Below are positions 43,255-59,831 of a stretch of DNA of 64,000 nucleotides, one piece after another. The stretch covers positions 1 through 64,000 of the forward strand of contig FWCC01000081.1 in assembly GCA_900169235.1 (NCBI GenBank), read 5' to 3'. Made by a program: the position numbers and the translations under genes. The notes below the pieces were generated by a model. It saw nothing but the letters and a program-made list of their open reading frames with translations. It was not told where the DNA came from and made no database searches. Numbering within the stretch: the stretch's first letter is position 1; every line of letters begins with the position of its first letter. This stretch comes from Zarea fungicola. Taxonomy: Eukaryota > Ascomycota > Sordariomycetes > Hypocreales > Cordycipitaceae.

Positions 43255-45525
43255 TTAGCTTCCCGACCGCATGATGTCTACTGCCTGCAAGAAAAAGGAC
43301 TCGAGGCGCAGCGCCGCCGGTCTAAGAAATATATTTGCCTCTCGAGTTCCCGATGCTTTGAGTGCTTGCGCCGATTCCACAAACGATTCCAGAAGACGAT
43401 ATGCCTTTTCAACATCTTGTCGCTCAGATGCCATAAGGAATAGATATATGAGAAAGTTGGCGCACGTAATCAGCTGCGACCGAGCATCTATACGGCAACG
43501 TCAGCATTAGTTCTTTGCCCACGCTCGACAAGCGTTGGAAAAAGTACATACGGCGACCCCAGAAGCCATTCAAGTCATTTGTGGTAATCTGGGAGAGGAA
43601 GTTGGTAAACTCCGCGAAAGCTGCGAGTGCATCGGGGAGCCAAACACACAAATTCGAGTCAGGATCGCCTTTTGCTTCTTTTGTGGCGGGATGCATCAGA
43701 GCGCGGTACAGCAGGACCTTTGTGGTGTATGTGCTCAAATGTACCGGGCCTTGTGCAAGTCAGATTACATGGATTGGAGTGTCAATTCAGTCTCGCACAA
43801 TGCTCACAATTATAGGAGGACTTCCCTGCGTCTTGTCCGCGGCTGTGGAGAGAGAGGCATGAAGGGGCCAAGCTGGCCCAGTGTCTGAGTTCAGTCTTGA
43901 TCGAGATGAGCTTAGCCTCTGTGGCCGTTTTGTCGGGCAAATCGTCTCCTTTGGGATATGTTTGGCTAGAGTGTTCGGAAACCGTGATTAGCAATTTTCA
44001 TCTGTAGAGTGATCCCACAGGATCAGTCAGGGACAAACAAGGGCCGCGACGTACAAACCCAAATCTAGAATCATTCGGAGACTCCGTGCAAGTTTGACCA
44101 TTTGAAGAAAACGAGCCGCAACGGCCACATCAAACTCAGTACTAGTAGGATCCAACAGATGCTGCAAGTCGTCTGGTACAGTATCCCCGTCGTGCACATC
44201 CTCCATGTCCGGCTCCAGTGTATTAAACGAATGTTGCCCAATATGCGGCGGATGACCGTAGCAAACAGCCGACCAACACTCCGTTATGTACACCGCCCAC
44301 CAGAGCTTTCGCCGCGTCCTCTTTTCCTCGAGAGGTATACTCCAATCAGATGGATCCTGGTGCAGTCCGAGAACCTGTGCCGTCGCAGTCGCTTGTGCTG
44401 AGAGCGCCCAGGTACTCGGCTCCTCAATCGTATCGACAAACGGCGGTGTGGCGTGTATCAAAAGCAAACACGCCGTCAGCGAAAGTGTGTTTGGATTCTC
44501 AATCTCCCGTCGGAGGGCGGCATGTGCATGGTCCAAAACCTCGTCTTGCGCAAAGCGGCATGGTTCCTCAATTCCAGAGTCGGCACACTCCCAGAATACG
44601 GAGGCCAGCCCATAGACGGCACCTCGTAGACAGACTGGCAATTTATCTCTATCCGAGGCATACAACTGCAAGAATCGGCGCTTAGGAATTATCGGAAGTA
44701 CTGGGTGCACATGTCGAAAGTATAATCGTACCAAATGCTCGCCGTAGGGGTGCACCATGGCTTCGATGGCATCAGCCGCGGTCTGGATGGCCCGGTTCGC
44801 CGCCGCGGTGCGCTCGACCAGCAAAAACAAAAAGTTCACGGGCCGGTCATTAGCAGCTTGGGATCCGTGGTAGACTGGTACGACATTGGCATCGACACTC
44901 TGGTACTCGTCGAGAATATCGTAACGGAATTCACCAAGAAGCATGGAGTCTTGCTCCGCGGCTGGGCCGATGAAGTAGGTAGATCTTCCTTCATTTTCCT
45001 CGAGGCTGCGAATGGGTAACGGCAAAAGCGTCGGATTGAGGTGTATTCGTTCTGTGCTTGGTACACCGGTCGCTGCCGACCAAGTCAACGACTCGTTATC
45101 CCGAGTTGCGGATTGTGGTTGCGACGCCGTGCCAGCCAGGTCGCCATCCCGTGCTTGAGCCGCAGTTGCCGACCGGCACAATATGTTTCTACTCTGACAA
45201 AAATTGCCTAAACGCAGTGGCAGAGACGGTAAAATTGTCAGTCATGAAAGGATTATGCGAGGGTAGAGCTTGTTTGGAGCGTGTACAGTCGTCATCACTT
45301 ACATGGTGGCCTGGACGTGATGACGCAGGCCGTCTTTCGTCTCCTGCAGGCATCACACGGCCTACTCAATCGGCTTCCCCGCGCCCTCGGCGTTCCAAAG
45401 GTGCTGTGCACCACATAAGCCGGCTCGCGCGGCTTCAGCCCCTGGTGGCCAGATTCGCCGTTGTTCGCAGGCCGCCGTCGGCTGCCGCGCCGCCCTGCTG
45501 AAGATGCGGTGACTCGATTGCTCAT
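43255..45525 (-). CDS. Zn2Cys6 fungal transcription factor
   Basis: Five exons on the minus strand: 45525-45303, 45207-44055, 43965-43808, 43749-43552 and 43487-43255, with introns of 95, 89, 58 and 64 bp, giving 654 residues. The binuclear cluster is C57-x2-C60-x6-C67-x7-C75-x2-C78-x6-C85, with RRRK between the second and third Cys. It is split by intron 1 exactly at the fourth Cys. The middle-homology domain (fungal-specific trans domain) covers roughly residues 170-400 (LVRLYFRHVHPVLPIIPKRR, WWAVYITECW). The C-terminus has the family-typical HARSQLITCANFLIYLFLMA. It lies beside an NCS1 permease and a hydantoinase, and CGG-N8-CGG sits about 80 bp upstream of its ATG, so it is the likely local regulator. 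Confidence 0.9.
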
Positions 45526-45602: not shown

Positions 45603-45616
45603 CGGCGTAGAATCGG
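45603..45616. promoter_or_regulatory. CGG-N8-CGG site in the regulator promoter
   Basis: CGG triplets at 45603-45605 and 45614-45616, 11 bp apart, followed by CGTACC. The site lies about 80 bp upstream of the Zn2Cys6 gene start. Spacing and flanking bases match the array at 48676-48711, so it is a candidate autoregulatory site. Zn2Cys6 proteins typically contact CGG triplets. Confidence 0.5.
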
Positions 45617-45845
45617 CGTACCTCCAGGTGAGACGGTGGGGACTGATGAATTTCCCCAGATTAAAGCCACCAGACTTGGAACTAGTCCAGACTGCTTACT
45701 GGAGGTTGAGTAACGCAAGTAAGCTAGTGGTGCTATCTAGTACGGTCTGGCATGGTGGCTATTCCTCTGGCTCAATAATATTTATGAGAATGACGATCGC
45801 TAGCAGTCTGTGGTTACTGTCTCGCTAGTCTGAAACAACGACACG

Positions 45846-48043
45846 TTACGCCTTGTGCACTGCAACCGATAAAGTCTCCTTCGAATGGACCCGACTTGCT
45901 CCTTCTCCGAGCAACACACTGTATCCCTCGTCTGAATCCAATTGCTCGTTGTAGTATTGTTGCAGCTGCTTGGCAGTCGTTGGTTCCCGAACAAAGGCAT
46001 CTAGACTCTGCACAGGGAACACCAAGTGCAGCACATAGTATATGACAACACTTGACAATACCCATACAAATAGTTCATGTAATATAGCTCAACAGCTCCA
46101 TCCGATACCTTCAGAGTGGTGTTGACTGCTGCAGCAAAGCCTGGGATGCAGGGAGCGCAACCAATTATCCACTGCCAAACGATTCGTATTAGCGTCAAGG
46201 TCGGCGGAGACGGCGGAGGCCAAAGCGGATACGCAAGACGAGAGATACAACATACCGTTACCGGGGCGCGCCAATTGATGCCACCATAGTACCAATAGAT
46301 GCTGGATTTGTCCCCTCGATACAAATCCTCAATTTTCATCTTGCTCTTGGTCACAAGGACATAGTGTGCTGTCATCATTCCTGTCATGGGCGCTAAAAAC
46401 ACGCCATAGCTGGACAAGACCGAGAGAAATATCGTGGCAGTGTTGACGAGCCTCCAAGGGTTCACAATCGGGCTCAAAATCGCGGTAATATAAGCACCGC
46501 GCCGGATGTTGACATACTTGGGGAAGACGGATGCCAGATCAATACCGCCTGCAATGGCATTGCCAGGTATACTGCTGCCCAGTTGAGAGATTACCAACGC
46601 TAAACCCGCAAAAAAGACGGAAGCTCTTGTACCTGCGCTTTCATCTCGCTCTAGAAGACGGACAAAGAGCGTTGGAGGATTCCACACGGCCTCGCCGCCA
46701 AGCCTCTGCTGCGTAGCCGCGACAACAAGGATACCTATCACAGAAGCAAATGTGCCGTAGACGGGATACGCAAAGGCTTGGCCTAGTATGGCATCGCTAG
46801 GCCGTCTTGCCAGGCGTGCAAAGTCATTTTGATTTAGAATTCCGGCAGCAATGGATCCAATTGTGCTCATGATGCCGTACACCATCAGCCAGGCTGCGCT
46901 TTGTGGGCCACCCGTGGAGGGCAGCGTCTCGCCGTTGCTGATCGTATCACCGAAGCCACTGGGTCCCATGGTCGCCAATGCCCAGATTAGCAAGACAGTA
47001 AAGAACACAATGGTGACGACGCTTGCAAAGGTGAAGAATGGCTGGAGTCGATGCGGCTTGATCCAGAGAAATGGGAGGCTTATGATACTAAAGATGACGT
47101 AGGACACAAACTGGGCAGTCGTCATGCCCGTATCAGCAGAAAATGTATTGGGAATGTGGTCACCGAAACGGGGATCCCATGATAGGAGAATCAGATACAC
47201 GCATTCACCACCGACCCATGACTGGAAGCCGTACCTGTAGTGATTTTTCAAGTAAGAATACGTCTTTGGCGGATGAGCTGTGAACACAATACTGCTTACC
47301 AAACTTGATTCAAACAAATCAGTAACTGAAAGGCTAACCCTCTTTTTAGGCTCAGACTCAGAGAAACTCACCTAATGAGAGGAAGATTCGATTCCAAATC
47401 GTAAACTGAGATCCCCAGATCCCCCATACCGCGCGGCTCACGACTGGAAACCCAACTGTACGGCACGCAACAACATTAGTGATGGACTTTTTAGGGTAAT
47501 GCGTGTTGAAAAACTAACTGTGATAATATGACCCAGCAAGGGAACTAAGTAGCAATGAACCAGTGGCGAGGAGGTTTCCGATGACAATGCCTGAGACAGT
47601 GGGTGTTAGAACATGCCACCACATCACATGGTACCGGCGCACAGTTTGGGCATGACTTACATATAATGGCCTGCCACCAGTTGAGACCAAGTGGAATGAG
47701 GGCGCTGCCTGTCAGAAAAGTGGCAATATTACAGTTAATCAGGAGCCCTGTGTGAGGTGTTAGCTAGCCCCTCAACTGCCCTGCCTGTCGGTTCTGGGCT
47801 GCAAATTTGGCCGAGAATGAATATGGTAAGAACGTACAAAAGTTGTGAAAAGTGCGAAATGTCCATGTACGTCTCCCAGTTTCAACTGGACGTACATCTT
47901 CGTTCTGTCGAATTGTTAGTCAGCTGAAGGGTTTAATGTTTGCTGTTTGCTTGTTGTTTGCTTGGCAGACAGGGCAGTTAACGTACGATCAAGATTGAGC
48001 CCTCCTCCAGCCGAAACTTGTGTAAAAACGAGAAGTCCAACAT
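45846..48043 (-). CDS. NCS1 family permease (purine/pyrimidine/hydantoin type), with one frameshift
   Basis: Minus strand exons: 48043-47987, 47904-47838, 47747-47661, 47590-47519, 47455-47372, a 4-nt microexon 47303-47300, 47234-46256, and 46171-45846. The N-terminal pieces read NEDVRPVETGRRTW, then LTGSALIPLGLNWWQAI, SLAGSYYH and IGFPVVSRAVWGIWGSQF, the signature order of Fur/allantoin-type NCS1 transporters. About 12 membrane segments are expected. The microexon supplies LVWYGFQSW across the join. In the last exon the frame breaks near 46062, where YMNYLYG must shift by one base to continue as SSVVIYYVLHLVFPVQSLD. That is either a sequencing error or a young inactivation. The length would be about 558 residues. 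It is divergent from the hydantoinase gene. Confidence 0.85.
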
Positions 48044-48316
48044 TGCTTCTCTGTATAGAGCGGATTTTGATTACAAGAGCAACTCTGAAATTGTTGGATG
48101 CTGTGCTTTGCCGGCACAGTCGTTTATATGGCCATATTCAGATTGCGGAGCCTGTTTGCCTCGGCCAGGGTCGAAGTGATAGTAGATTTCTCATGTCGCC
48201 CGGCGATGGAGATGTATTGGCTTGGTTGCTCAACATTTCAATGCCCAGGTTCCGGTGAAGGAGGCGTTCCCTATCAGCCCCAGCTGTTAACCCGGATGGG
48301 GCAACTCCACGACTAT

Positions 48317-48341
48317 CGGGCTTCCATCGGCCGTCCAACGG
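48317..48341. promoter_or_regulatory. Three CGG triplets at 11-bp spacing, permease promoter
   Basis: CGG at 48317, 48328 and 48339, separated by GCTTCCAT and CCGTCCAA. The array lies about 275 bp upstream of the permease ATG, in the divergent promoter. It has the same 11-bp period as the array at 48676 but a different spacer sequence, so spacing rather than copying explains the match. Confidence 0.5.
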
Positions 48342-48675
48342 CTGTCTTTTGGGCATCTTGAACGGTGTAAAGTAACCAACTGTGGCTGCTTGGCGCAGCG
48401 GGGCCAGAAAGCAAACATTACTCCTCCTGTCCAATAACACCCCATAGATTCCACAGTATCGTGTCTACTAAACCAACCCCGCGCAATAGCCTTCACGCTA
48501 GGGACTGAGCAATAGATGGAGGATCAGGCAGTCAACGTTGTGGTTGTGGTTACGTGACACCGCAGTTTGGTATCTTCAACATCATGTACCCAAATCCATG
48601 ACTATTCGAACCGTATACCGTTCATGCGTGCTATTTTCTTCGCATATCATCCTCATTTATCCGATGCAATAAAAT

Positions 48676-48711
48676 CGGCGTACCATCGGTGTACCATCGG
48701 TGTACCATCGG
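48676..48711. promoter_or_regulatory. Four CGG triplets at 11-bp spacing, divergent promoter
   Basis: CGG at 48676, 48687, 48698 and 48709. The spacers are CGTACCAT, TGTACCAT and TGTACCAT. The array sits about 350 bp upstream of the hydantoinase ATG and 630 bp upstream of the permease ATG. Direct CGG repeats one helical turn apart fit cooperative binding of a Zn2Cys6 factor. The neighbouring regulator is the obvious candidate. Confidence 0.6.
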
Positions 48712-49062
48712 CCAACTCATTTCCAGCTGCTCCACCGCAGTAGCAAGTGCTTGTAAGTCGACTCCTAGACTCGGACTTGTCTGACTCGGAACAGGTCCGC
48801 GCCGCGGTAACTCATTCCTGACCTATGTAGAGATGGCGTTGCTTAATTAGTACAATTGAGTGACACCGACCGTCGCAACAATCCGCAGGAGTGACATCTC
48901 CCTGCATGCCAGGATCACCGAACCACGGACAAACTGCAGAATGTCAAACTGCATATAATCCCCGCATTCTCTTTATCCTTGGCCAGTAAATCAACAACTT
49001 TTTTGCGGTTGTTTTCCCAAGCGAGTTGTGTCTTTCGGCCAAGACCCTCACTCACGCCAATC

Positions 49063-52000
49063 ATGTCGCTCTACCGCATCGGTGTTGACGTTGGAGGTAC
49101 CAACACAGACGCCGCAATCCTTGACATTCGCGCATTGGACTCTCCGGGCCGCGGTGTTCTCGCATCACACAAGGCTTCCACAACAAAAGACATCACCAGC
49201 GGCATCGAGGCTGCCATTCGTACAGTGCTTAAGGCGTCGTCGGTCGACCAACGACGCGTGCTCAGCGTCACCATCGGCACAACGCATTACATCAATGCCT
49301 TGATCGAGGCTGACGCTCGGCGCTTAGATCGGGTCGCCGTTGTGCGCCTGTGTGGTCCATTTACGAGGCAAATCCCACCCTTTTCTGGATTTCCCGTTGG
49401 TCTCTCTGGTATTCTGGACGGGGGCACCTACTACCTGGATGGTGGCCTCGAGGTTGATGGGCGACCCATTGCGCCACTCAATGAAGTCGAGGTCCGCCAG
49501 ACGGCCAAAAGCATCGCAGCATCTGGCGTCCGTGCCGTGGCCGTTGTTGGGGTGTTCTCTCCGCTGGATCATGATAGGATCTTTGAGGACCGGTGCAAAG
49601 CAATTTTGCAAGACCAAGAGCCGGGCTTGCGCATTGTCTGCTCCCAGGATATTGGCACTACCGGTCTTTTAGAGAGAGAGAATGCCACAATTTTAAATGC
49701 ATCCATCCTGAGGACCAGCCACAAGGTAAAGCGCGGGTTCAGACGTGCCATGCGCAATTTGAACCTCGCATGTCCGCTGTATCTCTCCCAGAATGATGGT
49801 ACATTGATCGAGGCCGACGCAGCTGCGGACTACCCAATCAAGACATTCGCCAGCGGTCCTACAAACAGCATGACGGGCGCGGCCTTTCTTGCTGGCTTTG
49901 ACTCAAATCGAGCCAACAAGCCTGTTCTGAATGGGGTCGAGTCGCGGCCAGACAGTCCGTCACTGACCAACGGCGACGGCCACGTGGAGCCTCAAATATT
50001 AGTCGTCGATATTGGAGGGACAACCACAGATGTCTGCGCTTTGATGCCCTCTGGCTTTCCGCGACAGGCACCTGGATTTGTCGAAATCGCCGGTGTACGC
50101 ACTGCCTTTACCATCCCAGAGGTAGTGTCAGTTGGCCTGGGAGGAGGCAGCAAAGTCTTCGCGCCGTCCGACTCGGCCGACTCCGTCACTGTAGGTCCAT
50201 CATCAGTGGGCTATAATATCCTCTCCGAGGCAAAAGTTTTTGGGGGTTCTACCATGACTGCTACAGATGTCATCGTCGCCCAAGGCAGAGCAGACTTGGG
50301 TAACGCGGATTTGGTAAAGGACTTGCCTCCTCATGTCATTGACGGCGCGCAAAATGCAATCACCAAGGCCTTGGCAAGTGTGATTGACAAGATGAAAGTC
50401 TCGACAGCCCCGGTACATGCCATTCTTGTCGGCGGTGGTGCGATCCTCGTGCCCGACCACATCCCAGGCGTTGACAAGTGCATCAAGCCCATCCACCAGG
50501 GTGCGGCCAATGCGATTGGTGCTGCGATTGGTAAGATCTCGGGTGAGATTGATGTGATTGAGATTCTCGAGGGAAAGAATGAGGCGGCAGTGATAGCAGC
50601 AGCTCAGCAGCGCGCAATCGACCTTGCGATTGCCAAGGGCGCCGACCCGCAGGACGTGAAAATCGTCGAGGTCAACAAGATGCCACTGCAATACATGTCC
50701 CGGGCGACAATTCGCCTTCAGGTGCGAGCAGTCGGACGGCTGGCGGTACCTAGCCATGCTGAACTTCCCACCTTCTCGCCATTGACAAATGGAGTGGCTG
50801 CTGTAACGGATGAGGGCGACGCAGAAGAAGGGGAGAAGATTAGCGTGCCCAATGCACTCAACACAACGACCAAGCCAGCCTTGAATGTAGATCTGTCGAC
50901 GTACCGTCCAGATGTTCGAGACGGATCTTGGTATCTCTCGGCGGTTGACCTGGATCTCATCGCAACTGGTTGTAGCATCCTTGGCACCGGTGGAGGTGGG
51001 CCAACATACTATGAGCTTCTCAAAAGTCTGCGGACCTTGGAAACTCATGGGAATGGGAAAATGAGAGTTGTCTCACCAAAGTCGCTACAAGACGATGCAG
51101 TAATTTGCTTAGGGTCCTGGTATGGCAGCCCAAGTGTCATCAACGAGCGGATCGGGTCCGGCACGGAAATCATCGACGCTATCAATGCTGTGAATAAGAT
51201 TAAAGGGATCCATTCTTTCGACGGTCTCTTGGCTGATGAAATGTATATTCTTCTACTATCTTCAATCTCTATTTATTTGACACTGTACTAATTTGGCGAT
51301 GCAGCGGTGGTGGAAATGGTATGGCCGCACTGCCTGTCGGCGCGCACTTTGACGTTCCCATTGTCGATGCTGATGGAATGGGCCGCGCCTATCCCACCAT
51401 GTACCACGGTTAGTCTTATATGTGAAAATAACTTACCGGGTTGCCTGCTTCTTTGGTTCCTTGCTAATAACGTACCATGAAGAGATCTTTAGTATTTACG
51501 GGCATGAAATGTGCCCCACGGTCATTACAGACGCGCGTGGAAATGCAGTCGTTGCCTTGGTACGTCATTCACCCTCACTCCTCATTCCCTCAGATGATCT
51601 AACCCCTCGGCCATTGTAGAACACAGATACACCGCAGCGACTCGAGGCTGTGTTCCGAACAGCCGCCATAGAGCTTGGTCTCACCTGCGCTGCCGGCACG
51701 AATCCTCTATCGGGAGCAATGGTCAAGAGAGCCACCATTCCTAACACCTTGTCCCAGAGCTGGTATCTCGGAAGGGCGGTCCATCAGGCCCGACGCGCGA
51801 AAACAAACCTCACTGAGGCGATTGTAAGAAAATAATCACACAAAATATACACAAATCCAGCTAACATGTGTAACAGTTTGAGGTTTGCGCTGGTAGGGTG
51901 TTGTTTGTAGGCAAGATTGTCGACGTTGAGCGCCATGTCAGCGGCGGCTACACCATGGGCGCAGTTATTCTCGCACCCTGTGACGACGATGACAAGAATG

Positions 52001-52377
52001 ATGCAGCCCCCATACCATCCAACGGCGATAATGGTTCGAATAATCAACACATGATCATTCCATTCCAGAATGAGTACTTGTATGCAGCAGTCTGTGACGC
52101 CACAGGATCCGAGGCATCCAGGGAGATAGTCTGCACCGTGCCCGACCTCATCTCCATCCTCGGCCAGGACGGTGAGGCCATTGGCTCCCAAGACCTGCGT
52201 TACGGCCTTCGAGTGAGTGTCATTGCACTACCTGCACACCCTTTGTGGAAAACGAAAAAGGCACTATCTATCGGCGGACCGGAGGGTTTTGGGTTAGGAA
52301 TGAAGCCAGTTTATGTTCAAGAGGCGTATGAGGAGCCTAGAAGTGTCATAGAGCAGTTTAATTTATCTAGTAAATAG
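49063..52377 (+). CDS. Hydantoinase/5-oxoprolinase-like protein fused to a DUF917-type domain
   Basis: Five exons (49063-51242, 51305-51408, 51483-51559, 51620-51823, 51877-52377), giving 1021 residues. Introns are 62, 74, 60 and 53 bp. The N-terminal hydantoinase A part carries GVDVGGTNTDAAILD near residue 6 and a second phosphate-loop motif, VVDIGGTTTDVCALMP, near 313, as in ATP-dependent ring openers. From about residue 620 a DUF917-like domain follows (GCSILGTGGGGPTYY; GGGNGMAALPVG across a splice). The family opens hydantoin or 5-oxoproline-type lactam rings, using ATP in characterised members. The substrate here is not known. ATG 49063 is chosen, with TATAAT at about 48954. It is divergent from an NCS1 permease, so uptake and hydrolysis of the same ring compound is likely. 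Confidence 0.9.
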
Positions 52378-59348: not shown

Positions 59349-59524
59349 AAACGCAGGGAGTGGTTGAAGCCACAATTTATTACAATTGTTTTGAAATATA
59401 TGAAACACTTAGGAAAATTGGCTAATGCGCCACTTTGTCAACGCAGGGAGTGGTAGAAGGCACAATTTATTACGACTTTTCTATATGAAACAATTAGGAA
59501 AATTTACTAATGCGTCACTTCGTT
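59349..59524 (+). repeat. Tandem duplication, about 90-bp unit
   Basis: Copy 1 (about 59350-59439) and copy 2 (about 59440-59524) both begin AACGCAGGGAGTGG. They share CACAATTTATTAC, ATATGAAACA and TTAGGAAAATT segments in the same order, with a few substitutions and a small deletion in copy 2. They lie 300-480 bp upstream of the UbiA-type gene. Confidence 0.8.
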
Positions 59525-59831
59525 GATAGTGTCATCTGGATCATGCCGATCGCCACGGCAGAGGGCAATCTGTTACCCCAAATGTTGTCACACTGCAAAT
59601 ACCATCCAGAAATGCCATCCAAGAATGCCATTTATGGAAAGATTGGGGAAAATCGGGGCGAAAACAGCTCAACATTGGAATCAAGTCGCTTATCATGGTC
59701 TCTCCTCTCACCAGTGCATAATTCGGTCACTTATGCTGTTCTTATGCTGTTTTACTTTCTTGTTCATAGAACTGAAATTTAGAATTCTCTTGTTTTGACA
59801 TCTCCCTTTGTACAGAACTCAGCTTACATAT

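Follow-up and report, generated by a model that had tools for sequence, protein, structure and literature searches.

Among fungal regulators the Zn2Cys6 proteins make up a very large class, most members of which have, to our knowledge, no known recognition site. Gal4-type members carry the pattern CX2CX6CX5-12CX2CX6-8C near the N terminus. Among the targets of the better described members, kojT is a transporter gene, and at the MAL loci of yeast MALx1 and MALx2 are divergent, with MALx3 adjoining. AmyR and InuR of Aspergillus recognise CGGN8CGG (PMC5468973, PMC4943734); according to the excerpted text of one AmyR study, AmyR also binds a single CGG weakly, prefers a T at spacer position 5, and has more than one copy of CGGN8CGG in most of the promoters that depend on it (PMC4943734). 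KojR of Aspergillus oryzae, a Zn2Cys6 factor encoded within a gene cluster, has four CGGN6CGG direct repeats crowded into the kojT promoter (excerpt of PMC10890517), while for Malx3 all three sites are described as required for full activation (excerpt of PMC4172970). Aspergillus nidulans TamA, a homologue of Dal81, is credited with both DNA-binding and co-activator roles (excerpt of PMC4246892), and Dal81 acts on allantoin genes with Dal82 (excerpt of PMC5853489).

The window analysed here is the 64-kb stretch C293:1-64000 of a 43.1-Mb assembly in 456 contigs, whose gene content is fungal. Within it, an NCS1-family transporter gene (45846..48043, minus strand; ATG 48043, stop 45846) and a hydantoinase/oxoprolinase-like enzyme gene (49063..52377, plus strand) share one divergent promoter region of 1,019 bp between their ATGs (48044..49062), which bears out the original prediction of a transporter/enzyme promoter. 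The transporter, whose exons 1-2 were placed by eye on splice signals, matches Transp_cyt_pur (PF02133, NCS1) at 2.7e-56. The enzyme, whose ATG at 49063 was also set by eye, carries Hydant_A_N, Hydantoinase_A and the S-Me-THD N and C domains. A regulator gene lies behind the transporter stop on the same strand as the transporter, and the enzyme gene reads rightward. GATA sites were considered as a sign of nitrogen control and dropped, since the 1,019 bp hold three HGATAR where the window averages 2.1 per kb.

A scan of the entire window recovered each of the CGG arrays first noticed by inspection, all on the plus strand and all in exact 11-bp steps. Four CGG triplets lie at 48676, 48687, 48698 and 48709 (48676..48711, in units of CGGYGTACCAT), the array ending 351 bp upstream of the hydantoinase ATG; three lie at 48317, 48328 and 48339 (48317..48341, both spacers N4-CCA-N), starting 273 bp upstream of the transporter ATG; and a pair at 45603 and 45614 (45603..45622) lies 77 bp upstream of the regulator ATG. 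All three arrays are thus placed in presumed promoters. There are 25 runs of two or more CGG or CCG at 11 bp in the window (13 CGG, 12 CCG), and the 48676 and 48317 arrays are the only runs of three or more. The CGTACC flank initially described holds for the 48676 array and for the second unit of the pair, at 45614, but not for its first unit at 45603, which reads CGTAGA; in the 48317 array the flanks are GCTTCC and CCGTCC. Eleven is also the commonest period among the short tandem repeats of the window (6 of 26 rows at a score of at least 40). A longer tandem repeat, of 85 bp in two copies with 83% matches, occupies 59350-59520, upstream of a UbiA-like prenyltransferase ORF at 59808.

By analogy with KojR, Malx3 and AmyR, the arrangement seen here is of a known kind: a transporter/enzyme pair, a Zn2Cys6 gene in the same cluster, and CGG direct repeats grouped together. 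The arrays share with AmyR/InuR operators the triplet, its direct orientation and the 8-base spacer, and the idea that the motif had not been described cannot be upheld, because CGGN8CGG is already known as the AmyR/InuR site. However, 0 of the 6 spacers have the T that AmyR prefers at position 5, the available accounts of AmyR describe its sites as pairs whereas an unbroken register of four steps is seen here, and amylolytic genes are replaced by a hydantoinase/NCS1 pair. As an AmyR site the present sequence is therefore putative, and appears to be of AmyR type in spacing only. The resemblance to KojR lies in the cluster-borne factor and the clustered direct repeats; KojR differs in its spacer of 6 and, in the excerpted text, in binding that was undetected at kojA (PMC10890517). 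Malx3 and Yfl052w offer a parallel in which transporter and enzyme genes are under Zn2Cys6 activators reading direct repeats, but with a spacer of 9, with CGC or CGG, and with sites that, in the text available, are apparently not fused into one register (PMC4172970). The putative likeness to TamA and Dal81 comes from the names of homologues. What is unusual about the present locus is its unbroken four-step register and a regulator family that is unstudied; no description of a tandem 11-bp CGG array was found in the open-licence literature, and wider print may differ.

The 5' part of the regulator gene spans 44066..45525 on the minus strand, with its ATG at 45525, exon 1 at 45525-45303, an intron at 45302-45208 and exon 2 running from 45207 to at least 44066. 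The predicted DNA-binding domain, at protein residues ~40-110, is encoded across both exons. The intron falls inside the Zn2Cys6 motif, and its removal leaves an intact CX2CX6CX7CX2CX6C pattern (CDACRRRKTACVITSRPPCNFCQSRNILC) that conforms to the Gal4-type pattern, confirming the adjoining Zn2Cys6 regulator that had been proposed. The Fungal_trans middle region (PF04082) is recognised at E 5.4e-21 and is the sole Pfam match at E 0.001, a threshold that Zn_clus (PF00172) does not reach. In addition, the Zn_clus label is attached to just one of 93 regulator homologues, many of which are fragments, and we count both observations against the reading, set out below, that this protein binds the arrays. 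The cysteine pattern is kept in most of 17 aligned homologues taken from the 93 (two look mis-modelled there), and the zinc-cluster block is well conserved across the alignment. Behind the block follows a variable linker in which a crude heptad count gave no convincing coiled coil. The nearest solved domains are the DNA-binding domains of LAC9, GAL4 and HAP1/CYP1, which match weakly (E 0.03 to 0.5). The three closest homologues (P0001-P0003) are 93%, 76% and 74% identical across roughly two thirds of the query length. The best named ones come from Ophiocordyceps, Hirsutella, Purpureocillium and Metarhizium, which makes a host among the Hypocreales probable, and at least five of the 93 bear the source names DAL81 or OTam. 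TamA is said, in the title of one paper, to work without its zinc cluster, which we likewise count against the local protein as reader of the arrays; TamA/Dal81 and the local family may be distinct branches. Within the same genome the regulator has two near paralogues (51% and 48%), both on contig C356, beyond which the longer matches are ~24-34% identical. Viral contigs scanned with the regulator alignment contained no relative. Two homologues, P0069 and P0087, are labelled by JGI as NCS1 family nucleobase:cation symporter-1, yet they match Fungal_trans; our guess is that these are merged models of two genes that are neighbours elsewhere, in which case the neighbourhood would extend more widely than the present genome.

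The arrays resemble one another in their spacers as well as in their triplets. Both spacers of the 48317 array have CCA in the same place as the 48676 array, and CGGN4CCANCGGN4CCANCGG has four exact matches in the genome, at 48317, 48676, 48687 and one position on C407. The 45603 pair agrees with the 48676 array consensus at 18 of 20 bases, an agreement that, at equal letter frequencies, has a chance of ~4e-6 over the 323 bp preceding the regulator and 7e-4 over the window. CGGYGTAN4CGGYGTA has five exact genome matches in three places: one in the regulator promoter, two in the 48676 array and two, which overlap, at C235:147650. The letters CCA and YGTA were picked after the arrays had been seen, and the kinship figures are therefore generous. 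Genome-wide over-representation of the kinship motifs was not found, and we count this against our main reading: with up to one mismatch the second motif has 25 matches versus 67 for the backward pattern and the first has 10 versus 7, while exact CGGN4CCATCGG occurs 56 times versus 77 backwards. The single unit ATCGGYGTACC is nothing special genome-wide (28 versus 34 backwards), with 5 of the 28 inside the window. As judged from these sequences, three kin sites across three promoters of one cluster would be hard to get by accident. The site on C235 (147650-147678), the sole other place in the genome with an exact CGGYGTAN4CGGYGTA, is a three-step array of CGGTGTARAGA at 11 bp; stop-free frames in the surrounding 6 kb reach 207 codons at most, and three ORFs tested there had no Pfam match.

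We lean, with limited confidence, towards the interpretation that the three arrays are one homotypic family of sites at which a Zn2Cys6 activator would bind, the adjacent regulator gene being the most likely to encode it. Taken overall, the arrays are a real homotypic cluster of sites and probably a functional one. One zinc-cluster domain would sit on each CGG, and the working unit would be a pair of triplets 11 bp apart, as for AmyR. The hydantoinase would be served by the four-step array, the transporter by the three-step array, and the regulator's own promoter by the pair. By analogy with AmyR, and if all steps were filled, the three promoters would have room for one, one-and-a-half and two dimers, or for two, three and four monomers, and by analogy with the Malx3 promoters the number of steps may set output. 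A pathway substrate would switch the whole cluster on together, with positive feedback on the regulator. The autoregulation originally suggested is compatible with the related pair before the regulator ATG, a putative site. Because 11 bp is slightly more than one helical turn, neighbouring bound molecules would sit on nearly the same face of the helix, where we infer that they might contact one another directly and bind cooperatively. A bolder version, in which a Dal81/TamA-like factor assembles in 11-bp steps as an open-ended row on one helix face, and the length of the array (two steps for the factor's own gene, three for the transporter, four for the enzyme) sets promoter strength or threshold, seems to us quite improbable. 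Were it true, the locus would hold the first defined direct-repeat operator for the Dal81/TamA-like family in the open-licence literature, and a natural ladder of site number inside one gene cluster.

Both NCS1 and hydantoinase genes have further copies in the genome. On C356, NCS1 pieces, a regulator and a hydantoinase gene lie together at ~42-50 kb, and a regulator and an NCS1 gene at ~226-231 kb, so that the regulator paralogues are found near NCS1/hydantoinase paralogues and the three kinds of gene tend to cluster. None of the regulator's 33 genome matches falls on C324, C30 or C352, which carry NCS1/hydantoinase pairs. We collected eight paralogue promoter regions totalling 8,373 bp (two for each C356 cluster, plus C324, C30, C352 and C387). 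An 11-bp array of at least three CGG was present in 0 of the 8, and CGGN8CGG pairs, at five in 8,373 bp, occur at about the window average of 28 in 64,000 bp. The enrichment upstream of NCS1/hydantoinase genes that the original prediction called for is thus absent from these same-genome regions, which speaks against a family-wide rule and slightly lowers our confidence in our main reading of the arrays. One site does recur: CGGN4CCATCGG is found at C356:44211, 139 bp upstream of the ATG of a paralogous regulator. Its expected number there is 0.0016 for the 1,364-bp divergent region and 0.014 for 12 kb; the counting followed after the site had been spotted by eye. A second CGGN8CGG pair lies in this 1,364-bp stretch. 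The C356:44211 site is the only sign of conservation obtained, and bears on the pair rather than on the array.

That the arrays are accidents of a CGG-rich region, with one spacing picked out by eye, is a very improbable explanation, even though its components are individually common. When the 1,019-bp intergenic region was dinucleotide-shuffled 20,000 times, at least three CGG in a run at any spacing from 4 to 25 arose in 11.1%; for CGGN8CGG anywhere in a 475-bp upstream region the figure is 9.7%. The 43.1-Mb genome contains 371 three-step 11-bp arrays (913 for the pattern read backwards), and a lone three-step promoter array therefore means little. More demanding configurations were rarer in the intergenic shuffles, with runs of at least four over the same range of spacings in 0.19%, runs of at least three at 11 bp in 0.48%, and a same-strand three-run at 11 bp in the rest of the intergenic region in 0.18%. 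Four-plus-three runs sharing one spacing were seen in 0 of 20,000, and it is this joint result, together with the kinship counts, that argues against chance. With its last G left free, the 35-base four-step pattern has 41 genome matches (109 backwards), and genome rates for a region of intergenic size are ~0.9% for three steps and ~0.1% for four. Single arrays are weaker against real DNA than against shuffles, and the stronger evidence comes from their kinship. The longest run noticed among the four-step matches listed, at C431:141651-141707, has at least five CGG at 11-bp steps with variable spacers, and a CG stands at the place of a sixth.

A somewhat unlikely alternative is that the four-step array is a short minisatellite produced by replication slippage, with the CGG spacing a by-product and perhaps no role. 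It would account for near-exact repetition of the whole 11-base unit rather than of CGG alone (3.5 copies with 96% matches in the tandem-repeat listing of the window), for the company of other period-11 rows, four of which score at least 69 when the 48676 array is included, and for near-exact 11-bp tandem repeats that fit the four-step pattern, with its last G left free, on C247, C260 and C369 among other contigs. The related three-step array on C235, in a stretch without recognised genes, points the same way. Slippage leaves unexplained why a degenerate three-step array has the same CCA, why a related pair lies in the regulator promoter, and why CGGN4CCATCGG stands at the paralogous regulator; moreover, a working site could have been expanded into the array by slippage, so that an origin by slippage may be compatible with function. 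The sites could also be real and read by another Zn2Cys6 factor, for instance of AmyR/InuR type, with the local protein co-activating in the manner of Dal81 or TamA. This we hold to be unlikely. Candidate readers are plentiful, since all 150 proteins scored, from 557 candidates, matched Zn_clus, and the identity of CGGN8CGG with the AmyR/InuR site, the DAL81 and OTam names among the homologues, the dual DNA-binding and co-activator roles of TamA and the partnership of Dal81 with Uga3 or Dal82, as excerpted, are all in keeping with it. Against it stand the missing AmyR-preferred T in every spacer of the three arrays and the recurrence of the site beside a paralogous regulator, which favours the local family.

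Should the arrays be sites for the local regulator, three linked promoters with two, three and four steps of a related site, beside its likely reader, would provide a ready test of site number versus output. The same cluster would be a test of what Dal81/TamA-like proteins recognise, and could help to assign function to fungal NCS1/hydantoinase clusters.

A half-site common to all the paralogue clusters was also sought and was not upheld. The best CGG+4 half-site for the C293 cluster is CGG-YRTA (7), reached by 2/1500 shuffles, and for the first C356 cluster (C356a) CGG-CRRA (10), reached by 0/1500. The second C356 cluster (C356b, 429/1500) and C324 (701/1500) gave no signal, and C30 stood at 30/1500. 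Against real DNA (560 overlapping genome chunks, of which 101 were non-coding-like), the C293 value was attained by 41/1500 samples of non-coding-like chunks and 80/1500 of all, and the C356a value by 10/1500 and 47/1500, respectively, so that half-site clustering is modest by this measure and lends weak support. Six CGGCRAA half-sites lie upstream of the closest hydantoinase paralogue, at C356:50361-50573; five share an orientation, and four of those five fall within 72 bp. Another two precede the neighbouring regulator, at C356:44087 and 44184. Elsewhere, CGGN4CCATCGG occurs at C450:54756-54769, upstream of a further NCS1 gene but at a distance of over 1 kb, and the divergent NCS1/hydantoinase promoter on C30 (L083, bases 698-728) contains three CGG at a spacing of 14 bp.
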